This document shows, in pieces, positions 1 to 14,340 of a stretch of DNA of 29,833 nt; within the stretch, counting starts at the first letter, position 1, and the number at the start of each line of letters is the position of its first letter. The notes under the pieces were generated by a model, which saw only the letters and a list, made by a program, of their open reading frames with translations, ran no database searches and was not told the origin of the DNA. Position numbers and translations under genes: made by a program. Where the stretch lies: the IMG/VR virus record IMGVR_UViG_3300018080_000458, positions 1 through 29,833 of that record. One strand, given 5' to 3'. This stretch comes from a virus.

Positions 1-162
1 CACTCGCCGGCCTTGATCGACCCGCCGGCCTCGATCCACTCGCCGGCCTCGATCGACTCGCCGGCCTTGATCGACCCGCCGGCCTTGATCCACTCGCCGG
101 CCTCGATCGACCCGCCGGCCTTGATCGACCAGCCGGCCTCGATCGACCAGCCGGCCTCGATC
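1..162 (-). repeat. 18-bp tandem repeat, nine units, in frame
   Basis: Nine contiguous 18-bp units (1-18, 19-36 and so on to 145-162) vary around GATCGACCCGCCGGCCTT on the plus strand. Variation falls mainly at three places: GAC or CAC at the unit start, CCG/TCG/CAG after it, and CTT or CTC near the end. The unit length is six codons and the minus-strand frame stays open, so this is a protein repeat and not a CRISPR array or iteron set. The array continues past the left edge. Near-identical units favour copy-number change by slippage or recombination. Confidence 0.85.
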
Positions 163-317
163 GACTTGAACACGGATTTGTTGCGGAACTCGATCGACCC
201 CGTTACTGACAATTCAAGCAACGGCAAATTGATTTCACACTCGATTCGCAAGTTGCCTTCGTAATGCTCCTTGAGGTCTTCTTGTCGCGTCACCACCGTT
301 ACCTGGTCACAGCTCAT
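1..317 (-). CDS. Hexapeptide-repeat protein, C-terminus cut by window edge
   Basis: The frame opens with ATG at 317, with an AAGGGAG ribosome site about 7 bases upstream, and runs off the left edge without a stop, giving at least 105 residues. Residues 1 to about 52 are non-repetitive and begin MSCDQVTVVTRQEDLKEHYE. From about residue 53 the protein is a regular six-residue repeat, [SW]-I-[EK]-A-G-[WGE], at least nine copies. Short hexads with an aliphatic residue at a fixed place are typical of left-handed or bactofilin-like beta-helices, so a small beta-solenoid is likely; this is inference from the pattern. The start lies 3 bases after the ERCC4 nuclease stop, so it belongs to the early operon. 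Its function is unknown. The plus-strand open frame over the same DNA is a mirror of the repeat. Confidence 0.72.
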   Translation of the reverse strand, partial: MSCDQVTVVTRQEDLKEHYEGNLRIECEINLPLLELSVTGSIEFRNKSVFKSIEAGWSIEAGWSIKAGGSIEAGEWIKAGGSIKAGESIEAGEWIEAGGSIKAGE

Positions 318-320
318 TTC

Positions 321-857
321 TTACGCTCCCTTTCGAGTAACAACTGCCGTTTGCGCGTCTGTTTGTTCGCAGACGTGCTTCCAATACTTCTGACATGCCC
401 CGAATACGCGAATCTCACCGGCCCGACGATCGCCCACGGTCCACCAGTGGACGTGTGGGTAGCGGATGCTCCAGCTCGTGATCGTGCCCTCAACGCTCTT
501 GGGAAACAGTCCGCTCCGCCAGTCCGGGCGGCTATCGACCGGCCGCCAGATCTGCCGCAGATCGGCCTCCACGACGATCGCGGCGAACTGCATCGCATCG
601 AGCCTCTGAATCTCCGCTTCGAACCGCCGGCGGTTCTGGCCCAGCGTGCCGAAGAGGTCTTCGAGCGATTTCCGCTCGATAGCGAATTCGCCTTCGAGCC
701 CGACCAGCGAGTAGTCGCCGGTGGGCAAGTAGGTCCGTACGATCTCGATCGACGTGTAGCCGAAGATCGGCAGCATGCCGAGGAACCGATACGGGTGCTG
801 CTCGCGATTGTCCACGACGATCGTGAACGGGGCGGGTCGCGGCTTCTTCTTGGCCAT
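321..857 (-). CDS. ERCC4-type (XPF-like) nuclease
   Basis: 178 residues. The XPF/ERCC4 nuclease signature is visible near the N-terminus: VVDNREQ (residues 14-20, with D16), TGDYSL (46-51, D48) and IERKSLEDL (60-68, the E61-R62-K63 motif). These acidic and basic residues form the metal site that nicks branched or flapped DNA in this family. The protein is essentially one nuclease domain, with no helicase and no obvious tandem HhH, as in other phage-encoded stand-alone ERCC4 proteins. It is probably cytoplasmic and acts on recombination or replication intermediates alongside RecT and RecD2. The stop is 3 bases before the next start at 317, and the HNH gene ends 30 bases upstream. The exact substrate cannot be read from sequence. 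Confidence 0.85.
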   Translation of the reverse strand: MAKKKPRPAPFTIVVDNREQHPYRFLGMLPIFGYTSIEIVRTYLPTGDYSLVGLEGEFAIERKSLEDLFGTLGQNRRRFEAEIQRLDAMQFAAIVVEADLRQIWRPVDSRPDWRSGLFPKSVEGTITSWSIRYPHVHWWTVGDRRAGEIRVFGACQKYWKHVCEQTDAQTAVVTRKGA

Positions 858-887
858 CCCTGCGGCTCCCTTTCCTGCCCTTCTTCT

Positions 888-1265
888 TCAAAAGTCCTCG
901 TCCCAATACTGGTTCTGCCGGCTGTTCTCCGAGAAATCGACAAGCCGCAGGTTCTCCGGTCGGTTGTCGTGTTTGTTGCGGTTGACGTGGTCGACGGCCA
1001 TGTCCCCGGGCACAATCTGCCGGTGTCGGATCATCCAGACCAGGCGGCCGACGGTCGTGGCCCGCCGCCCGCCGGCCAGGTAGGCCCGGATGCAAGGCCG
1101 CTGCTGGTGGTCCAGGTACGTGGCCAGTTGCGTCTGCTTGCCGTTGACCGAATAGACGTTGCCTTCGTCGTCGGTCGCGAACCGGCCGGCCCGGATCGCC
1201 TCCAGTAGCTCGCCGTCGGAGAGCTTTCGGTACTTTCGCTTTTTCTTGGAATTGCTGCTTCTCAT
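888..1265 (-). CDS. HNH endonuclease
   Basis: 125 residues from ATG at 1265, chosen because this ATG overlaps the RecD2 stop in a TGATG junction; the open frame extends further upstream but only as a shadow of RecD2. The N-terminus is basic (SKKKRKYRK). The C-terminal third carries the HNH motif: D92-H93 in AVDHVNRNKHDNRPENLRL, with N101 and N105 as the downstream Asn residues. The preceding region (residues 35-85) looks like the NUMOD/AP2-like DNA-contact part common in phage HNH homing enzymes. It sits directly downstream of the RecD2 C-half. Free-standing HNH genes like this are often selfish homing endonucleases, although a role in DNA processing cannot be excluded. Confidence 0.86.
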   Translation of the reverse strand: MRSSNSKKKRKYRKLSDGELLEAIRAGRFATDDEGNVYSVNGKQTQLATYLDHQQRPCIRAYLAGGRRATTVGRLVWMIRHRQIVPGDMAVDHVNRNKHDNRPENLRLVDFSENSRQNQYWDEDF

Positions 1266-2683
1266 CACGTTGCCAGCTCCGTCAGCTCCAAAAGATCCTC
1301 GGCCCAGGCCTCCGCGAGCAGCTCGCCGCGGCCGGCGATGAGCTGCTCGGCCAGGAACGTCTTGCGGTCCCAGAGGCCGCTGTGCCGGCAGGCCGCGTCC
1401 GCCACGCCCTTGGGGCCGATGCCGACGGTGAGCGTTGTGGCCCGCGATACGGCTGTGTAGATCCATTCGCGATTCATGACCCGCCTGGCCCCGGCGTAGC
1501 CGTCGAGCATCACCAGGACGATCGGCCATTCGGAGCCCTGGCTCTTGTGCACGCTGATCGCATAGGCCAGGTCGAAGTCACAGCCGGTCCCCGCCTGCTT
1601 TTCGTCGCCTTCCTGCTGCTGCGATCGCCGGCCACAGGGCACGCGGATCAGCCGGTACGGTGCCTCCAGCACGGCCGTGAAGCGGCCCGCTGCGACGTCC
1701 AGCACGCGGGCCTGCTCGCCGTTGGCCACGCGCGTTTCGTCCGGACGGGGCGATCCGTTCGCCTCGCCCTCCACCAACGGCAGCCAGCCGTTGCTCGTGC
1801 AGACGATCTTGTCGTCCGTACGAAACGGACAGCCGTCGACTGTGCGGCCCCGCGGATTCAAAAGTTTCTGGAGGTGCTTGTTGAGCGTCTTGCGGGCCAG
1901 CGGTGACTTTTCGTTGACCGGCACCACGACTTGCACGTCCCACACGGGATCGCAGGCCGGGCCCTTGAGTGCATCGAGGCCGTTGCCCAGGCCGTGTTCA
2001 AAAAAGGATTCCAGGGCGGCGATTTGCTCGGCCGGCTGCCGGCAATCGAGATGGATCAGGTTTTCCGGCTCGTCCCCTTCCAGGCACAGTGCCCTGGAAA
2101 ACGTGATGCGGTGGCGGTCGCGGATTTCGGCACACGTTTTGACGATCCGGCCGGCATTGCGGCGGATCTTGGTGAGCGTGCCGGTGGGTACGCCGGCCTG
2201 GATCAGGTCCCTGAGCGGTGCCCCGTGGCCGACGGGGGCGAGCTGGTGCGGATCACCGATCAGCAGCACGTGGCAGCCCCGCGGCCTGGCCGCCAGGAGT
2301 GCAGCCAAGAGCGTGGTGTCGATCATGCTGGCTTCGTCGACGAACAGGTAGTCGACCTCCAGCGGGTTGTCTTCGTCGTGCGCGAACTGCCAGCCCCGGT
2401 CCCGCGTGCCCTCTTCGTCGGTCTGCATCACGCCCAGGAGCTGGTGGATCGTGACGGCCGTGATCGACAAGCCTTGAGCGGCCAGGCTCTCGGTGGCCCG
2501 CACGGCCGCCTTGCCCGTGGGAGCGCAGACGGCGATCCGGGCGGCCCCGTGCATCCCTTTGACCGCCCGAATGACCTGGGCGAGCGTGAACGTCTTCCCT
2601 GTGCCGGGCGAGCCGGTGAGGATCCCCAGGTAGCCGGTCAGGGCCTTGCGAAGTTCGGCACGTTGGTGATCAGTTAGTTTCAT
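1265..2683 (-). CDS. recD2: RecD2-type helicase, C-terminal (motor) half
   Basis: 472 residues from ATG 2683, which overlaps the GIY-YIG stop (ATGA); an in-frame start 16 codons upstream exists but lies inside the GIY-YIG gene. This is the complete SF1B motor: Walker A GSPGTGKT at residues 24-31, motif Ia CAPTGKAA near 53, Walker B FVDEASM with D116-E117, motif III LLIGDPHQL, motif V ISVHKSQG and motif VI YTAVSRA. It is an ATP-driven 5'-3' DNA helicase. It lacks the OB/HhH N-domain of RecD2, which is encoded separately at 3107-4075, with the GIY-YIG gene exactly between them. The two products (322 plus 472 residues) add up to a normal RecD2 length, so they may assemble in trans. Confidence 0.9.
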   Translation of the reverse strand: MKLTDHQRAELRKALTGYLGILTGSPGTGKTFTLAQVIRAVKGMHGAARIAVCAPTGKAAVRATESLAAQGLSITAVTIHQLLGVMQTDEEGTRDRGWQFAHDEDNPLEVDYLFVDEASMIDTTLLAALLAARPRGCHVLLIGDPHQLAPVGHGAPLRDLIQAGVPTGTLTKIRRNAGRIVKTCAEIRDRHRITFSRALCLEGDEPENLIHLDCRQPAEQIAALESFFEHGLGNGLDALKGPACDPVWDVQVVVPVNEKSPLARKTLNKHLQKLLNPRGRTVDGCPFRTDDKIVCTSNGWLPLVEGEANGSPRPDETRVANGEQARVLDVAAGRFTAVLEAPYRLIRVPCGRRSQQQEGDEKQAGTGCDFDLAYAISVHKSQGSEWPIVLVMLDGYAGARRVMNREWIYTAVSRATTLTVGIGPKGVADAACRHSGLWDRKTFLAEQLIAGRGELLAEAWAEDLLELTELAT

Positions 2684-3120
2684 GGCTGCCTCTGTTCGTC
2701 GCAGCAAGACCTTATCTGTTCGTCGTAGCAAGACCTTATCACTTCTATCAATTGTATTGGGTCAATTCCGTATCGCCTGAGTGTCGTGGCATTCTTCTCG
2801 ACCTTCTTGATTCGATCTTGACACGTCAAGCAACAAGAATTCATCTTTGGCCATAAGGCTGCAATCAAAGAGCCTTCCACCGCCAGGCGGTCGCATTTGT
2901 TTGTTATCTCGATGAAGACCCCCGAGCTGAATCCAAGTGACGGCCCCCCGCCTCTTCTGGATCTTGTGCTGTGGTAAATTAGCCTTTGCATGCCGTTCTT
3001 TGTTTGGCCGATGTACCAAAGGGTATTGCCCTGAAACAAGATGTAGACACACTGGACGGTGGGGATTCTCTCGACCGATCCAAGCAGTCTTTTAACGTCG
3101 TCGTATTTAGCTGGTTCCAT
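2680..3120 (-). CDS. Free-standing GIY-YIG endonuclease splitting recD2
   Basis: 146 residues from ATG 3120, overlapping the end of the RecD2 N-half by 14 bp; its TGA overlaps the RecD2 C-half start by 4 bp. GIY-YIG landmarks: CVYIL (residues 24-28, the GIY strand), WYIGQT (35-40, the YIG strand), R46, H50, and the metal-binding Glu E82 in EGSLIAALWPKMN (82-94). The DNA is visibly more AT-rich than its neighbours (for example around 2745-2880 and 3085-3120), which suggests recent arrival. The C-terminus ends in a duplicated 8-residue unit. There is no room for an intron ribozyme or intein splice ends, so this looks like a homing-endonuclease gene inserted directly between the two halves of a helicase gene. 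Confidence 0.88.
   Translation of the reverse strand: MEPAKYDDVKRLLGSVERIPTVQCVYILFQGNTLWYIGQTKNGMQRLIYHSTRSRRGGGPSLGFSSGVFIEITNKCDRLAVEGSLIAALWPKMNSCCLTCQDRIKKVEKNATTLRRYGIDPIQLIEVIRSCYDEQIRSCCDEQRQP
2691..2738. repeat. 24-bp direct repeat, two copies, one mismatch
   Basis: Units 2691-2714 and 2715-2738 differ at one base (C versus T). They are in frame in the GIY-YIG gene and encode the near-duplicate C-terminal octads (IRSCYDEQ, IRSCCDEQ). The pair lies at the junction with the RecD2 C-half, so it may mark the insertion end or a slippage duplication. Confidence 0.85.
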
Positions 3121-4075
3121 TTGATTTTCCCAGTTCCGGCCAGCGGGGCGGCGTGACAAAGGTCTCGCGTTGGGCCTGTGTGACGTGTCGGGCGATGCGG
3201 GTCTCGGCCCAGGCCTTGGGCGCTTCGGCCAGCCAGTGGCGGTTTGACTGCTGTTCGATCCGCTCGGTGAGCAGCTCGTGTGTCGTGGCCCAGTCCAGGG
3301 CGGCGTCCATGCGGACCTGGTCGCCGGCGATCGAGCGGCACAGCGCACGCCGGCCGTCTTCCCAGCAGTGCCAGGTGTGGCCGTTGCCGTCGCTGGCCAG
3401 GGCGTGCCAGAGGCAGTAGCCCTGCCGCTGGACGGCCGCCGGATCGTGGCCCAGTTCCAGATAGAGGGCATCGGCCCGTGCGAAGCCGGCCCCCGTAAAA
3501 CGCATGAGCTGATACGGATTGTCGCGGATGATCCGCGGCGCGTCTTCGCCCCATTGGCGGATCACCTTGTCGGGGAGCGAGCGAGGGAAGCCGCGGGAGC
3601 CGATCAGGTCCTGGACCTCGATCGTGACCTTTTCGAGCCGTTGGTGGGCCCTGAAGTGCTCGGCAGCGGCCTCGGCCTTTTCGAGGGTCATGCCCTCGAT
3701 CTCGGCGGCAATGCGTACCGGGTCGGTCCGCACGACGTCGAGCGACCCTTCGCGAAACAGGTTCCAGATCCGCTGGGCCCGGGCGCTGCCGATCCCCGGG
3801 CCTCGTTGGAGATACTTGACCGTGGCCCGCTCGCCGATCGGTGTGGCCAGGGTGGCGGACGAGAAGTGAAACTGTCGGCCGTACTTGGGATGCTCGACCC
3901 AGTGCCCCAGAAAGCGGTAGGTGAGGCCGCATTGCAATGCACCGCGACGGGCCCGGCCCTTGACCACGCGGCCGTCTTCCAGGTCACCGATCACGGTCCG
4001 TCGCTCGGGATCCTCGTTCTGGAAGACCTGGCGTTCCCAATCGAAGACGGCGATCAGCTCTTCGTCGCGGTGCAT
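3107..4075 (-). CDS. recD2: RecD2-type helicase, N-terminal domain half
   Basis: 322 residues. It matches the RecD2 N-terminal region: an OB-like barrel at residues 25-90 (TVIGDLEDGRVVKG, LTYRFLGHWVEHPKYGRQF), the conserved PIGERATVKYLQRGPGIGSA helix-hairpin-helix with a second HhH near EGMTLEKAEAA, then the helical region with the NPYQLMRF motif typical of RecD2. No Walker A is present. The last residues (about 314-322) run into sequence shared with the GIY-YIG start, so the original C-terminus has been altered by the insertion. The start has only a weak ribosome site. It is followed by the GIY-YIG gene and then the motor half, all in one transcript. It is likely to bind DNA and, if it assembles, to pair with the motor half. 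Confidence 0.86.
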   Translation of the reverse strand: MHRDEELIAVFDWERQVFQNEDPERRTVIGDLEDGRVVKGRARRGALQCGLTYRFLGHWVEHPKYGRQFHFSSATLATPIGERATVKYLQRGPGIGSARAQRIWNLFREGSLDVVRTDPVRIAAEIEGMTLEKAEAAAEHFRAHQRLEKVTIEVQDLIGSRGFPRSLPDKVIRQWGEDAPRIIRDNPYQLMRFTGAGFARADALYLELGHDPAAVQRQGYCLWHALASDGNGHTWHCWEDGRRALCRSIAGDQVRMDAALDWATTHELLTERIEQQSNRHWLAEAPKAWAETRIARHVTQAQRETFVTPPRWPELGKSNGTS

Positions 4076-4195
4076 GGCAAAAGATCAGGCGCAAGGAGTT
4101 AAGGAATCACGCTCGGATTTGGGCCAGACCTTGGCGTAGTCTGGAAAAAACGCATCGATCGGCGGCGTTTGCCCATTGCTTTTGTCTCGCGGGTC

Positions 4196-4268
4196 AAAAG
4201 AAACAGCCGGCCGGCCGTCGTCCTGACGAGGGGCGAATGATCCTCGCGCGTTCGCCGCCGGCCGGCTG
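4196..4268 (-). terminator. Probable Rho-independent terminator or attenuator after the SSB-like gene
   Basis: A perfect 12-bp inverted repeat, CAGCCGGCCGGC (4204-4215) with GCCGGCCGGCTG (4257-4268), is followed on the minus strand by TTTCTTTT (4203-4196). The 41-base loop contains a second dyad (GGCGAA/TTCGCC). It lies in the 216-bp gap between the SSB-like gene and recD2, the longest gap inside the early operon, so it may set the level of downstream expression. The rest of the gap holds no gene with a usable start. Confidence 0.55.
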
Positions 4269-4291
4269 CCGGGAGCAGCCTGGTTGGTCGC

Positions 4292-4864
4292 TCAGGAAAA
4301 CAGGTCGCTGCCGTCGAAGGGAGGATCCTCGGCCGCCGGCGGAGCCGCCGCCTGGTTCGCTCCGTTGCCGTTGCCGCCTGCCGGAGGCGTGCTGAACGGC
4401 TCGTCATGGCGGAGCTTGGCCCGGTTGATCGGGATCCCCTTGGCCCGCGGATCGTCGAGAGCCCAAATGTTGAAGTTCAGCTTGCACCGCTTCTTGCCGT
4501 TGTACTCCTCCTCCACGAGCCGGCCGGCGAACTGGCGACCGACGGCCTCGGGCTCGAAATGGATGTCGGGATCGACTCCCTTGGCCTTGCACTCGGCCAG
4601 GCCCGCGTTGGTCGCCAGGCCGAGGGCCACGGCGAACTGAGCCACCCTGCCCTGGGACGCCTGGGAAAGCGAGAAGTACTCGCGATGCACCTTGCCTTCC
4701 TGGTCAGCGACGTCGGCGGCGAGCACTTCGCAGTCGGCGTGCATGGCACCGCTCTTGGGATCGAACTCCTGGATGGCCAGGACTTCGAAATGGGCGCCGC
4801 ACGGTTGCGGCCGGTCCGGTCCGTCCAGCTTGGACGGGTCCACGTCGGTCATGTCGAGTCGCAT
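4292..4864 (-). CDS. SSB-like single-stranded DNA-binding protein (DUF669-like)
   Basis: 190 residues with a GAGGGAG ribosome site upstream of ATG 4864. The body (residues 20-145) is a single beta-rich domain containing GAHFEVLAIQEFDPKSG, a REYFSLS strand and a FAGRLVEEEYNGKKRCKLNF strand, the pattern of phage DUF669/gp2.5-like proteins. Residues 157-180 are a Gly/Asn/Ala/Pro linker, and the chain ends in the acidic tip PPFDGSDLFS. A disordered linker plus an acidic tip ending in Phe is the hallmark of SSB proteins, where it recruits partners. The gene sits between recT and recD2, which fits a role in coating ssDNA during recombination or replication. The family assignment is moderate; the SSB-like tail is the strongest evidence. 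Confidence 0.65.
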   Translation of the reverse strand: MRLDMTDVDPSKLDGPDRPQPCGAHFEVLAIQEFDPKSGAMHADCEVLAADVADQEGKVHREYFSLSQASQGRVAQFAVALGLATNAGLAECKAKGVDPDIHFEPEAVGRQFAGRLVEEEYNGKKRCKLNFNIWALDDPRAKGIPINRAKLRHDEPFSTPPAGGNGNGANQAAAPPAAEDPPFDGSDLFS

Positions 4865-4879: not shown

Positions 4880-5065
4880 CTACTGGGACAACGCCCTTGT
4901 GAGGGCGTCGATCTGGGGTTTGCCGGGAGCCGGCCAGGTGGGCGGGAATCCCAGCACGTCCAATCCTGTGAAATAGACACGTTTGCTGCCGTATCGCCGC
5001 ACGAGCGGCACGAGTTCGCGCGGCCAGTGGTTCTCCTGGACGGCCAGGAGCCACGGCCGCTTTAC
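4880..5065 (-). CDS. Possible small protein, start codon uncertain
   Basis: Between recT and the SSB-like gene, a minus-strand frame of about 61 codons ends at TAG 4882-4880, directly before the ribosome site of the next gene. It reads like a real protein, with stretches such as WLLAVQENHWPRELVPLVRR and VYFTGLDVLGFPPTWPAP. It has no ATG; the frame is open upstream into recT, and in-frame GTG codons occur only further in. The recT stop TAA overlaps its beginning, so it may start by coupling at a non-standard codon near 5065 or at a downstream GTG. I do not recognise the family. It could also be the remnant of a longer gene. Confidence 0.4.
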   Translation of the reverse strand, partial: VKRPWLLAVQENHWPRELVPLVRRYGSKRVYFTGLDVLGFPPTWPAPGKPQIDALTRALSQ

Positions 5066-6108
5066 GAGTTTCCCTCCCGCCTGGCCTTCTCGGCCCGCAG
5101 GACGTCGAGCAGGTGGTTGCAGTCGGGCTCCGAGAGGTCCGAGATCTTGGTCGCTTCGGCCCGAGCGAGCATGGCGACCAGGTTGTCACGCTTCACGTCC
5201 AGCTCGATGACGAGCTGCTTGACTTCGGCGATCTGCTCGGCCGTGGCCTTGCCGTTGCCGTTGCCGCCCGCGGCCGCAGCAGGCTGCTGGGCCGGCTTCT
5301 GGACCGGTTGCGGCTCGGCAGTCGCCGCGGCCGTTTGGCCGGTCATCAGGTGCGTGGTCAGGCCCTGCTTCTGCGCCTCGGCCTCCTGGGCCGCCGGCGA
5401 ATCGTCGGCCGGCGTCTCGGGCAGCGGCGACGGGACGGCATTTGTCGCCGGCCCACCGAGAGTCATGTACGCCACGTCGGAGGTCTCCACGGGCCGGGCA
5501 TCCAGGTTGTGGCCGTCGAAGTCGGCGACTTCCTCCGGCGTGTAGTGGCCGGCCACGACTTCGGGCGAGAAGGCCCGGATGGCGTCGCTCACGACGCGGG
5601 CCCAGAGCATTTGCATGCGGGCACGGGGCGTGGCGTACTTGGGCTTGAGCTGGAGTTTCTCCCGCTTGCCGGCCGCCAGGGTGGTGACGACGTCGCTCTC
5701 CTTGCCCGCGTAGACGAAGGGCTCCTTCATCGCCTCCGTCCAGGTCAGCTCGAAGGTCGTCGTCGTGCCGTCCAGCGTGATCTCGATGGCGGCTCGCTTG
5801 GGTGATCGCTCCAGGATCTTGTGCGCGCCGCCGAGCTGCGTGTGGAAGTCGGCCAGCATGGCCTCGGCCTTCATCGACAGCTTGCCCTGGATGAGGTGGT
5901 ACCGCTCGGCCAGTGCCAGCGGCGGCAGTCGCTTGGCCGCGCATTCCAGGGCCAGCACGTGGCCCTGGGCCGCCGTCTCGCAGCCGAACATGCGGCTCTT
6001 GTAGATCGCGTCGCCAATCTCGCGGATGAAGCCGGCGACGTCTCCCGCTCGATCGTAGACGGCCGGCATGGCCGCCTTCTTGAGCGGTTCCAATGCAGTA
6101 CTAGTCAT
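5062..6108 (-). CDS. recT: RecT-family ssDNA-annealing recombinase
   Basis: 348 residues; AAGGGAG lies upstream of ATG 6108. RecT-family features are an N-terminal helical segment (about 25-60), the block PLALAERYHLIQGKLSMKAE (residues about 62-81), a basic GGAHKILERSPKRAAIEITL strand, and the helix ATPRARMQMLWARVVSDAIR followed by PEVVAGHYTPEEVADF. Residues about 225-290 are a low-complexity Ala/Gln/Pro linker and the last 50 are a helical C-domain. RecT proteins coat ssDNA and anneal complementary strands in phage recombination. The gene is followed by the SSB-like and recD2 genes. The usual partner exonuclease (RecE, lambda Exo or YqaJ type) is not seen; a DEDD exonuclease lies two genes upstream. 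Confidence 0.82.
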   Translation of the reverse strand: MTSTALEPLKKAAMPAVYDRAGDVAGFIREIGDAIYKSRMFGCETAAQGHVLALECAAKRLPPLALAERYHLIQGKLSMKAEAMLADFHTQLGGAHKILERSPKRAAIEITLDGTTTTFELTWTEAMKEPFVYAGKESDVVTTLAAGKREKLQLKPKYATPRARMQMLWARVVSDAIRAFSPEVVAGHYTPEEVADFDGHNLDARPVETSDVAYMTLGGPATNAVPSPLPETPADDSPAAQEAEAQKQGLTTHLMTGQTAAATAEPQPVQKPAQQPAAAAGGNGNGKATAEQIAEVKQLVIELDVKRDNLVAMLARAEATKISDLSEPDCNHLLDVLRAEKARREGNS

Positions 6109-10648: not shown

Positions 10649-11380
10649 TCAGGCTTTTGCCCGAGCCTCAGCAATCGCTTGCTGAACCTTCTTTTCCCAG
10701 TCCTTCGTCCAGCCGGGCTGGATGGGCTTGAGCTGGCGGACGATCTTCTCCTGGCCGCGGCGTTCGTAGCCGCCACGGCCCATGGCCGAGAGGTGCCGGG
10801 GGTTGCGGATCGTGCCCCAGCGATGGACGAACGACGGCCGGCCGGTCGGGGAGGCCTGCGGAATGCCGATCCGTTTCATGCGCGTGGCCAGGCCCTGGTC
10901 CTGGCCCGATTGCATGGCCGGGTAGCCGCCGGCCGCCAGAAAGGCCCGCCGCGTGAAGACCCAGGCCGCGTGAAAGAGGCCCCGGGTCTGCTTCCGCCGG
11001 AGCCGCTTGGGATGGTCGTTCCAGACCACGGCGGGCCGCGACCACTCGACCCGGCCCGCTTCCAGCAGCTCGGCCGCCCGCTCCAGGTGCCACGGCAGGT
11101 AAATGTCGTCATCGTCCCAGACGGCCAGGGCGTCGACGTCCGGCGAAACAAGGGCGGCCGTCGCGTTTCGCTTCTCGCCCAACGTGCAAAACCGCTGGCC
11201 GATGCTCACGAGCCGCCAGCCCGGGCCGGTCTGCTCGCAATACTGGCCAGCGTCGTCCAGGATGATCAGCTCCCGCTTTGCCAAGGGGTACGTCTGCCGC
11301 TGGAAGCACTCGATCGATTCGGCCAGCAGCTCGGGACGGTTGTAGGTGGAACAGATGCAGGCGATCTTGATGTCCGGCAT
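10649..11380 (-). CDS. Glycosyltransferase, family 2 (GT-A fold)
   Basis: 243 residues. The N-terminus IACICSTYNRPELLAESIEC is the nucleotide-binding start of GT2 enzymes, LIILDDAG follows at residues 38-45, and the metal-binding acidic cluster is VWDDDDIYLPWH (D89-D92). FHAAWVFTRRAFLAAGGYP and the later GQDQGL resemble the acceptor-side region of such enzymes. It would transfer a sugar from a nucleotide donor; donor and acceptor are not predictable. The C-terminal 40 residues are basic and helical. It is the last gene of the late operon, three bases after a second glycosyltransferase. Confidence 0.85.
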   Translation of the reverse strand: MPDIKIACICSTYNRPELLAESIECFQRQTYPLAKRELIILDDAGQYCEQTGPGWRLVSIGQRFCTLGEKRNATAALVSPDVDALAVWDDDDIYLPWHLERAAELLEAGRVEWSRPAVVWNDHPKRLRRKQTRGLFHAAWVFTRRAFLAAGGYPAMQSGQDQGLATRMKRIGIPQASPTGRPSFVHRWGTIRNPRHLSAMGRGGYERRGQEKIVRQLKPIQPGWTKDWEKKVQQAIAEARAKA

Positions 11381-11383
11381 GGA

Positions 11384-12130
11384 TCAGGTCGAGCTGGATG
11401 GGGGCGGTGTTTGGACAAGTTGCCAGCCGTGGGCACGGTAGTAGTTGTGAATCTGAATTTTCTTGACGTGCTCCGAGGTCTGGTTCCAAAGGGCGTGGCG
11501 ATCGTTGCCGTACTTGCGGCCCTTGAGCGAGCCCCAGAAATCCTGATCGCCGGGCGGGTGCGGGCAGGCAAAACTCTTCACGCCGAGGTGCTTTTGCAGA
11601 GAAAAGCTGAGGTGGTAGTCCTCGCCGGCCGTGGACGGACAGCCGGGCATGCGGGGCTCCAAGACGAAGTAGCCCAGCCAGCGCCGGGGCAGGAACCAGG
11701 CGTGGCCGATCACGTCGACTTCGTCGATGCGATCGTTGGGCCGGGGCCAGCCGAATTTGGGCCGCAGGCTGCGATCGCCGGCCGGGAATCGGACGCCGGC
11801 AGCACCCACGAGGCCGCCCGTCTCGGCATGCGTCCGCAAACAGTTCTCGAACCATCTTGGGCCGGGGATCGTGTCGTCATCGAAGATGCATACGAAGTCC
11901 GTGGCCAATGAGGCCGCGTAGTAGAATCGCTGCCAGACGCCCTGGCGGATTTGGGAGCCGGTGACGATCACCGAGGCGTCGCAGACCGGCGGCGATTTCG
12001 GGCCGTCGTGCCAGACGTGAATGCACGCGGACCGGATCGTCTGCCGGCGGATCGCCTCGATCTGCTGGCCGATGTAGCTCATGCGGGCGTGCGTGCCGAT
12101 CACGACGCCGATCGTGGGCGTATCACTCAT
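11384..12130 (-). CDS. Glycosyltransferase, GT2-like, second copy
   Basis: 248 residues from ATG 12130, overlapping the sulfotransferase stop by 8 bp. GT-A features: PTIGVVIGTHARMSYIGQQI at the N-terminus, FVCIFDDDTIPGPRWFENCL with D84-D86 as the DXD-type metal site, and GAAGVRFPAG. The later segment MPGCPSTAGEDYHLSFSLQK has the acidic pair often acting as catalytic base. It is not a recent duplicate of the GT at 10649, since the two share only the fold-level pattern. It is probably cytoplasmic and modifies a virion protein or host surface glycan. The C-terminus is Pro/Ser-rich (PPPSSST). Confidence 0.8.
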   Translation of the reverse strand: MSDTPTIGVVIGTHARMSYIGQQIEAIRRQTIRSACIHVWHDGPKSPPVCDASVIVTGSQIRQGVWQRFYYAASLATDFVCIFDDDTIPGPRWFENCLRTHAETGGLVGAAGVRFPAGDRSLRPKFGWPRPNDRIDEVDVIGHAWFLPRRWLGYFVLEPRMPGCPSTAGEDYHLSFSLQKHLGVKSFACPHPPGDQDFWGSLKGRKYGNDRHALWNQTSEHVKKIQIHNYYRAHGWQLVQTPPPSSST

Positions 12131-12701
12131 CAGGCAGTCTCTCGGGGTCGTATCCGTACGCGGCAAAGTCAATCGCTGCGAAATCGCGGACGAGTCGCAT
12201 GCAATAGGCGTCGTAATAGTCCGCGAGCCGATACGGCCGGTTGTGGTTGATCTGCTTGATCGGGCCCTTGAACTTCGCATCGGCCATGAACGGCAAGGCG
12301 TCAAATTCGTCCTGCAACGACTCGAAACGCAAGACGCGGTGCAGCCGGCAGCCGGAGAGCATCGTGGCCTGCGGCGGCTCTTGGGTGGACAGCGGCGGGG
12401 CTTCCATGTTCGTGTCCCACTCAAGATACTCACGAAACGTCCAGCGGCGGCAGAGCCGGTACATATTGCTCCGCGGCCGGCTGCGACGGAAGAGATAGTG
12501 GGACAGGTGCCGCGCGAACGGATTGCGAACCACGGCAAAGGCGAAGTGCAGCTCCGTGTCCGGCAGCGGGTGCATCGCATGATGCCGGCCGACGGCGCGG
12601 GCCTTGCCAGGAAAACACTTCAAAAGATGGGCCGAGATGGCCCGCGAAGCCGTCCGGGGAACGGCGTAGAAAACGAACGGGGGATCATTACAGAGAATCA
12701 T
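12123..12701 (-). CDS. Sulfotransferase-family protein
   Basis: 192 residues from ATG 12701 (ATGA overlap with the GT4 stop). The two PAPS-binding elements of sulfotransferases are visible: a 5'-phosphosulfate loop FVFYAVPRTASRAISAHLLK (P15 to A21) and the 3'-phosphate motif FAVVRNPFARHLSHYLFRR (R59, S67). The rest is helical and the size is short for the family, typical of Sulfotransfer_2-like proteins in phage and polysaccharide clusters. It would move sulfate from PAPS to a hydroxyl on a glycan or protein. Flanking glycosyltransferases suggest that a sugar is the acceptor. Phage sulfotransferases are uncommon. Confidence 0.75.
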   Translation of the reverse strand: MILCNDPPFVFYAVPRTASRAISAHLLKCFPGKARAVGRHHAMHPLPDTELHFAFAVVRNPFARHLSHYLFRRSRPRSNMYRLCRRWTFREYLEWDTNMEAPPLSTQEPPQATMLSGCRLHRVLRFESLQDEFDALPFMADAKFKGPIKQINHNRPYRLADYYDAYCMRLVRDFAAIDFAAYGYDPERLPDE

Positions 12702-13834
12702 AGGGTCGCGTCTCCACTGCTAGTGCATACGGGCTCAAGAAGCATGTCGTCAAGAAGCCGATAGCCGGCCACGGTCTCGAAGAGGCGGTTCCAGTCGTCC
12801 GTGATGGGGCCCGGGTCCGCAAGCTGCTCGACGCGCGCCCGGGCCGCTTCGGCGATCTGCATGCGGAGCGTTTCGTCATAGGCCAGCAGGGCGGCATAGA
12901 ACTTCAGTTCCCCGTCATTTCCGCCGCTCGCGTCGGAGCCCAGGTAGCCGGTGATGCCGTGCTCGATCATCTCCCGCCAGCCCCATTCGTTCTGGGCCAC
13001 GATCGGCACGCCGGCAGCCATCGCCTCCAGGCCCACGCGCGGCCAGTTCTCTTTGGCTCCGCCGTTGATCGGCAGCAGGCAATGGCAGCGGCCAAGGAAT
13101 TCGGTCGAGCTGATCTCTTGCGGCTTGAGCGCCGTCGCCCAGCGGGGCGGCCGGCCGAGCTTGCGCTGGAGCTTGTCGTTCCAGCCCATCACCAGGGCCC
13201 GCCGTTGCTTATACGGCACCCCGCCGTAGATCGCCCACGTGTTGGAACTCCACTTGTCGGCGTCCGGGCGGGAGAGCCGGCCGATGACGAACTCTTCGCC
13301 CGCAGCATGGGCCCGGGGCTGGAACGGAAACTCGCTCAAGTCAAAGGCCCCGCGGATCACGTGAGCGTGCACGAGCGGATCGTAGCCCTGAGACAGGCGG
13401 TTCAACTGCAATTCGACCTGGCCCTGCTGGAAGCGGGACTGGTAGACATAGGCGTCCATCAATCCGTGCTTGCGTGCCGTGGCCAATTCGGCGGGGAAGC
13501 AGAAGGTCATGCAGTTGACCCACACGAGCCGGCACTCCAGGCGGCGCAGCTCCTGGACCGAGCTGACGTAATGGGCGTTGCAGAAGCCGATCACGATCGA
13601 GCCGGCCAGGCCCGGGACGTCGGCCAGTTTGCGGGGGCCGTCGACCTCGATCGTCTTGGCCCCGATCGCATCGAGCCGCCGGCGATACGTCTCGTTCGGT
13701 TTCCATGTCGGCACGAGCGTGACGTCCCAGCCGGCTTCCCGCCAGAGCTTGACCGTGTGCCAGCACTCGGTATTGGCCCCGCCCATGTTGCCGGGATAGC
13801 CGAGCACGAAAACGTGAAAGGGATGCAGACTCAT
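12698..13834 (-). CDS. Glycosyltransferase, GT4-like (GT-B fold)
   Basis: 378 residues from ATG 13834, which overlaps the previous stop (ATGA); the longer open frame upstream is a shadow. The N-domain begins HPFHVFVLGYPGNMGGANTE, with the Gly-rich acceptor loop of GT-B enzymes, and continues WREAGWDVTLVPTWK. The C-domain has the GT4 donor-site pattern ENWPRVGLEAMAAGVPIVAQ followed by EWGWREMIEHGITGYL, including the E-x7-E-type acidic pair. There is no signal peptide. It is the first of four consecutive coupled genes (GT4, sulfotransferase, GT2, GT2) that look like a glycan-building cassette inside the late operon. Confidence 0.85.
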   Translation of the reverse strand: MSLHPFHVFVLGYPGNMGGANTECWHTVKLWREAGWDVTLVPTWKPNETYRRRLDAIGAKTIEVDGPRKLADVPGLAGSIVIGFCNAHYVSSVQELRRLECRLVWVNCMTFCFPAELATARKHGLMDAYVYQSRFQQGQVELQLNRLSQGYDPLVHAHVIRGAFDLSEFPFQPRAHAAGEEFVIGRLSRPDADKWSSNTWAIYGGVPYKQRRALVMGWNDKLQRKLGRPPRWATALKPQEISSTEFLGRCHCLLPINGGAKENWPRVGLEAMAAGVPIVAQNEWGWREMIEHGITGYLGSDASGGNDGELKFYAALLAYDETLRMQIAEAARARVEQLADPGPITDDWNRLFETVAGYRLLDDMLLEPVCTSSGDATL

Positions 13835-14340
13835 TTCTTCTTCCGCGGAGGTTTGACTTCGGCGAGAAACTTGTTCTTGGGGCAGCGCTCGGTGGCCATT
13901 TTGATCTTGTTGATCAAGGCGATGTTGCCGGAGCTGGTCCGGCAGCCGCAGACACGACACCGCTTCTTCTTGGCGTTGAAATCGGGGCACGGTCCGCAGA
14001 TCGTCTCGAAAATCTCCTGGACCCGCTCCGCACTCCGTACGGGCCGGCCAAAGCGAATCCAACGGCGGACTGCCTTCGAGTAGCGCTTGGCACAATCCTT
14101 GAACGACGGGAGATCATCGGACGTGGGAGACGGTTGCGGCTCCGTCGGCGGATCGCCGCTGCCGGAACGACACGGCACGGGCACGCCGGCCAGCCATTGC
14201 CGCTGCTGCTCGGGAGTGAAAAGGGCGTTGCAGATCGCCAGCAGGCCGCAGGTCCGGCAGCGGAAGTGGATCCCGTCCGGCCCGTGGGACGTCTCTTCCC
14301 ACGTATGCCCTGCCGTGTTGTAGCGATCGTTATCAGACAC
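13831..14340 (-). CDS. Cys-motif (probably zinc-binding) protein
   Basis: 169 residues from GTG 14340, chosen for the GGGAG site 8 bases upstream and the 8-bp overlap with the preceding gene. The N-terminal part holds HFRCRTCGLLAICNALF (C-x2-C-x5-C), and the C-terminal part has ETICGPCPDFNAKKKRCRVC followed by GC and, 20 residues on, ERCP. The paired C-x2-C knuckles suggest two zinc sites or one shared site. The tail ends in a basic PPRKKK. The C-terminal Cys pattern recurs in phage proteins next to glycosyltransferases, but I cannot name its function. It is translated just ahead of the GT4 gene. Confidence 0.68.
   Translation of the reverse strand: MSDNDRYNTAGHTWEETSHGPDGIHFRCRTCGLLAICNALFTPEQQRQWLAGVPVPCRSGSGDPPTEPQPSPTSDDLPSFKDCAKRYSKAVRRWIRFGRPVRSAERVQEIFETICGPCPDFNAKKKRCRVCGCRTSSGNIALINKIKMATERCPKNKFLAEVKPPRKKK

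Follow-up and report, generated by a model that had tools for sequence, protein, structure and literature searches.

We analysed a 29,833-bp linear virus contig from IMG/VR (IMGVR_UViG_3300018080_000458; the whole stretch is called the window below) and found that the gene of a RecD2-like DNA helicase is broken into two open reading frames (ORFs), with a GIY-YIG endonuclease gene lying between them. The break separates the N-terminal part, which holds the OB and HhH domains, from the SF1B motor. The nearest relative that we found still carries the gene as one uninterrupted ORF, and about 26 other viral contigs have a break at the same N-domain/motor boundary. It is probable that insertion of the GIY-YIG gene broke RecD2 in the lineage of the window and that a two-piece enzyme is the result.

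All three genes are located on the minus strand. The N-terminal half (322 aa, 3107..4075) ends in ...PPRWPELGKSNGTS followed by the stop codon, and it overlaps the GIY-YIG gene (146 aa, 2680..3120) by 14 bp (3107-3120). The GIY-YIG gene in turn overlaps the motor half (472 aa, 1265..2683) by the 4 bp ATGA (2680-2683). This order, the sizes of the ORFs and both overlaps reproduce those given in the initial annotation, which was made from the sequence alone. The motor begins with MKLTDHQ at the ATG at 2683, which is preceded at a spacing of 5 nt by a good Shine-Dalgarno sequence, AGAGG (2689..2693), within the 3' end of the GIY-YIG gene. An alternative in-frame TTG at 2731 would add 16 residues to the motor, and these are encoded by a 24-bp tandem repeat. 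The repeat is present in two copies at the 3' end of the GIY-YIG gene (2691..2738, minus strand) and encodes IRSCYDEQ IRSCCDEQ; it adjoins the ribosome-binding site of the motor, and a gain or loss of copies could alter how the coupled start is spaced. The N-half and the motor share one frame with three in-frame stops between them, so that read-through joining the halves was rejected.

The two halves were assigned by profile searches. In the N-half, the OB_YrrC and HHH_RecD2 domains were found with Pfam (PF14490, E = 1.4e-21; PF23139, E = 2.1e-8) and Walker A is absent; the motor matched AAA_30 (E = 5e-32) and UvrD_C_2 (E = 3e-15). On the RecD2 model TIGR01448, the N-half covers profile positions 5-292 and the motor covers 315-709, and the halves are therefore consecutive pieces of one protein, as had been proposed. 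The uninterrupted protein of the nearest relative gives a single match over profile positions 27-709. The bit scores were 120.6 and 241.4 for the halves of the window and 371.6 for the fused protein, all below the curated NCBI equivalog cut-off of 500 bits. Because even the fused protein falls under this cut-off, we do not make an equivalog call, and by domain order and motifs these proteins are best described as a divergent phage RecD2-like group.

Neither half shows signs of decay. Helicase motifs I-VI are complete in the motor (GSPGTGKT, which is the Walker A, APTGKAA, VDEASM, GDPHQL, KIRRNA, VHKSQGSEW and YTAVSRA), in agreement with the earlier statement that the motifs are intact. In pairwise comparison with the nearest relative, dN and dS were 0.28 and 0.93 for the N-half and 0.26 and 0.80 for the motor, that is, a dN/dS of about 0.3 for both. 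The values for the neighbouring ERCC4 nuclease gene were 0.30 and 0.77. By this measure, the N-half and the motor appear to be constrained to a degree similar to that of a neighbour in the same cluster. No sign of a decaying motor, an outcome that the initial annotation had named as telling against it, was seen by these measures.

The inserted gene is assigned to the GIY-YIG family by its signature residues, because its profile match is weak (PF01541, E = 0.014, 16.1 bits, below the Pfam cut-off of 22.6). The protein has VY26I, YIG36-38 and the catalytic residues R46, E82 and N94; two annotated GIY-YIG proteins from cyanobacterial plasmids share Y26, YIG36-38, R46, H50, E82, P91 and N94 without change. 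The label given at first is therefore right, although weak by profile. The base composition of the insert is foreign: its GC content is 0.49, compared with 0.67 on both sides, and its GC content at third codon positions (GC3) is 0.59, compared with 0.83-0.85 in the two halves. The higher AT content reported before is borne out by these values. No match to the protein was obtained by tblastn in phages, nor in the contigs of the nearest relative and 14 other relatives, a search that had no positive control.

Relatives were collected by scans of viral contigs. Single-protein scans returned none; alignment queries found them, and the loci so obtained (L-numbers below) were picked by similarity and are a non-random sample. 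The nearest of them, L094, has one uninterrupted 797-aa ORF holding both the N part and the motor, with identities to the window of 67% for the N part and 68-69% for the motor. An uninterrupted homologue of the joined protein, which had been suggested as a check, is therefore available, and it supports the claim that one RecD2 was broken between its N-domain and its motor. L094 groups with the window as its sister both in the motor tree (support 100/99) and in the tree of the two halves combined (100/100). L094 keeps the conserved gene order (RecT-like protein, small unnamed protein, RecD2, ERCC4 nuclease); the GIY-YIG gene is present in the window and missing from the same site, with the same neighbours, in its sister. 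This is the pattern of a homing-endonuclease allele, and the gene is probably a free-standing homing endonuclease.

The initial annotation had expected an uncommon case for a DNA helicase; with the other broken contigs, the arrangement is not a lone case. Of the 141 distinct loci from the first two scan rounds, 113 carried a fused gene and 23 were scored as split, four of which (L041, L069, L072, L126) were set aside since they look like frameshifts or contig edges. A scan of genome contigs mostly gave bacterial Dda- or RecD-like proteins; only one (L157) fell in the group, and it is fused. In the viral contigs that are broken at this boundary, what lies between the pieces varies. The occupants are HNH endonucleases in L111 and L112 (phrog_374, E = 1.5e-45 and 4.1e-32), a Dam methyltransferase (E = 3e-10) with a weak match to the GIY-YIG-like MUG113 (E = 0.017) in L097, a 285-aa protein (phrog_5931) in L014 and a pyrophosphohydrolase in L061. 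In L018, an ORF at 3768-3941 that reads as CsrA by eye overlaps both halves. An 88-aa ORF is found in L102, small ORFs in L110, L250 and L252, and other genes in L139, L142, L136 and L154. L247 and L134 have a short gap. Nothing lies between the pieces in ten loci (L016, L100, L021, L024, L025, L108, L240, L244, L245, L253), where the frames overlap or abut. The split motors shown retain their helicase motifs, with the exception of L018, in which motif II is altered.

The ten loci without an occupant bear on a further point of the initial annotation, which had named two separate halves without the GIY-YIG gene as evidence against itself. Such halves do exist in other lineages, and the endonuclease is therefore not needed for the split state. 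An insertion in the lineage of the window is not refuted by them, because its sister L094 is fused and because the break is placed differently relative to a 'WP' motif in the linker. This motif is kept in fused relatives. The break of the window comes after it, and the motif is carried by the N-half in the window and in L100; the breaks of L014, L097, L016 and L018 come before it, and the motif is carried by the motor. Resolution is poor for L014, L097 and L015 within the five-row clade of the window, so that L014 and L097 may go back to a single break event; the break of the window is on the opposite side of 'WP' from theirs.

On the motor tree, nine changes of state are needed, six of them forced by well supported branches; on the tree of both halves, which has a smaller set, six are needed and five are forced. 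These counts are of fission or fusion changes and give no direction. We favour repeated fission over one split with many re-fusions, because a single chain is the state of both the RecD2 model and the outgroup proteins and because the side of the 'WP' motif differs. The linker probably tolerates breakage since it joins separately folding domains. More generally, we put forward tentatively, as a view for which the balance is near even but a little short of it, that the phage RecD2 linker is a recurrent site of fission, occupied by unrelated endonuclease families (GIY-YIG, HNH and possibly MUG113 with Dam) and by other genes, and that a two-polypeptide RecD2 with its N-domain in trans is stable in several lineages.

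One clade of 12 rows is uniformly two-gene in the tree of both halves. In this all-split clade, the HNH gene stands at the junction only in L111 and L112, and their kin are without it. HNH genes of the junction family also occur upstream of the N-half in L111 (1918-2529) and downstream of the motor in L240 (4926-5528) and L250 (4955-5575). With this distribution, splitting before the arrival of the endonucleases, which would have settled around the gene afterwards, seems likelier for this clade. In the sister phages L017 and L102, the RecD2 linker has gained a cysteine-rich stretch that resembles a zinc ribbon; it is in frame in the fused gene of L017 (3560-4000) and stands at the end of the N-half in the split gene of L102 (2291-3589).

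For the window, the proposed history is as follows. The RecD2-like SF1B helicase of this phage belongs to a conserved recombination cassette with the RecT-like protein, the small unnamed protein and the ERCC4 nuclease. A free-standing GIY-YIG gene would have entered the linker that joins the N-domain to the motor, leaving two ORFs, each with its own start. On the simplest reading of the trees and the gene order, the break and the gain of the GIY-YIG gene both fell on the branch that leads to the window, and we infer that the insertion caused the break; insertion as the cause is favoured here because L094 is fused. The three ORFs would then be translated from one message, with coupling through the two overlaps, and the N-half would cooperate with the motor in trans, giving a two-piece RecD2. 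Assembly is suggested indirectly by the constraint on both halves and by the 12-row clade, which makes a working two-piece enzyme more plausible, as a clade of this kind would be hard to explain with non-working pieces. The GIY-YIG protein presumably homes, cutting uninterrupted alleles and spreading thereby.

Several points weigh against this account. Insert-free splits are common among the relatives, and the break could therefore predate the insert. No close homologue of the GIY-YIG protein is present in the collections searched, hence no sign of horizontal spread is seen. No relative is close enough to date the insertion or to show its exact borders, the nearest having about 70% DNA identity. 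The pairwise dN/dS of about 0.3 also takes in the branch of L094, where the gene is intact, and dS is high.

The first of these points leads to a different history, in which a break or a re-start first left abutting halves, and the boundary between these two existing genes was afterwards invaded by the GIY-YIG gene. Free-standing homing endonucleases often invade such junctions. The ten relatives with nothing between overlapping or abutting halves are in accord with this order of events, as is the shifting presence of endonucleases around a gene that is already in two pieces in L111, L112, L240 and L250. For gene 43 of Aeromonas phage 25, the literature records a similar doubt (PMC2988022). 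However, since L094 is fused, an earlier split must fall on the same short branch as the insertion, and two events are required in place of one; we regard this order as somewhat unlikely for the window. It may also be supposed that the halves are no longer one enzyme, the motor being a short RecD-like helicase on its own and the N-half a separate DNA-binding protein or a remnant. In published assays, RecD2 of Deinococcus radiodurans still works as a motor after removal of the first 150 residues (PMC3757182), so the motor may not need the whole N-domain. This is quite unlikely in our view, because the N-half is conserved and constrained as much as the motor, adjoins it in every split relative and persists through the 12-row two-gene clade.

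Two other explanations were weighed and rejected. Endonuclease genes often sit within introns or inteins, and hidden splicing could involve an intron of group I or II, an intein, or a fractured gene in which split-intein halves flank the endonuclease. A reference quoted in PMC3653736 records gene pieces that have split inteins together with a free endonuclease. In the window, an Rfam search of positions 1-4500 gave no group I or II intron at E<=5, and a Pfam search gave no intein domain in the N-half or the motor. The gap is taken up by the endonuclease ORF, which overlaps the N-half as well as the motor. Split-intein halves would have no space, since the N-half runs on for only about 8 residues beyond the conserved linker and conserved sequence resumes 2 residues into the motor. 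With the three in-frame stops, this upholds the earlier claim that neither an intron nor an intein can be accommodated, and splicing is extremely improbable. Decay of the gene or a chimeric contig might be suspected, as the evidence is one metagenome contig whose exact junction sequence was not in any other viral contig searched at the DNA level. The intact motifs, the dN/dS and the functional start signals are against it; moreover, the ends that flank the insert match each other, and the arrangement recurs in many independent contigs. We therefore rejected decay or artefact as very improbable. Among these explanations, insertion of the GIY-YIG gene into an intact RecD2 remains the one that we prefer for the window.

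The neighbouring genes, all on the minus strand, include a second endonuclease beside the split helicase but outside RecD2. This HNH gene (125 aa, 888..1265; PF13392, HNH_3, E = 1.2e-10) directly follows the motor with a 1-bp overlap, and no match to it was found in the loci of the nine relatives searched, L094 being among those that lack it. Further downstream is the ERCC4-type nuclease (321..857; PF02732, E = 1.4e-10), which has the same place in nine relatives. Upstream, synteny identifies a conserved 190-aa neighbour (4292..4864), which had no Pfam or PHROG match, and the RecT-like single-strand annealing protein (5062..6108; phrog_561, E = 1.4e-11). Elsewhere in the window, an 18-bp tandem array of about nine copies occupies the contig end (2-166), and its minus strand encodes S/W-I-x-A-G-x hexapeptide repeats. 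Two glycosyltransferases of families 2 and 1 are located between the integrase and tail genes (10649-13999, minus strand).

RecD2 of Bacillus subtilis and D. radiodurans has the same order of OB, HhH and SF1B motor as the phage proteins, but it is one chain, whereas the window has two ORFs. The phage break falls at the end of the RecD2 N-terminal domain of roughly 280 aa, a domain described as uncharacterised that is thought to bind single-stranded DNA and, in B. subtilis, to cause strand switching (PMC12143592). Phages thus naturally separate this domain from the motor in several lineages, which offers a way to test its role by supplying it again in trans. In addition, intact, split-empty and split-occupied forms of one gene coexist, which allows us to ask whether mobile endonucleases cause fission or settle in genes that are already split.

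Genes split by insertion whose pieces reassemble have been described, such as nrdA of Aeromonas phage Aeh1 and gene 43 of Aeromonas phage 25 (PMC2988022). In Aeh1, the free-standing homing endonuclease gene mobE splits the gene of an enzyme of DNA metabolism, as in the window; both have two ORFs in overlapping or abutting frames, and neither an intron nor an intein, nor any other self-splicing element, stands between the pieces. The two cases differ in that mobE is HNH and the window gene is GIY-YIG, and in that a ribonucleotide reductase is split in one and a helicase in the other. The function of the split Aeh1 enzyme was shown by experiment, whereas that of a two-piece RecD2 in the window is predicted. 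T4 topoisomerase 39/60 with mobA is also an endonuclease insertion between pieces of one ancestral subunit (PMC2988022). There the endonuclease is HNH and the split protein a topoisomerase. To our knowledge, no recurrence across lineages is known for T4 39/60. Phage 25 gene 43A/43B has a seg-like GIY-YIG gene at a split replication gene, like the window, with the same doubt about whether the split or the endonuclease came first and with relatives that are split by a different spacer; it differs in being a DNA polymerase, whose pieces were co-purified and shown to be active (PMC2988022). Our search of open-licence papers gave no report of a split RecD2 or of repeated breakage of one linker with different occupants. 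Gene splitting by free-standing homing endonucleases is thus already known, and what appears to be new within that literature is a split RecD2 with recurrent breakage of its linker.

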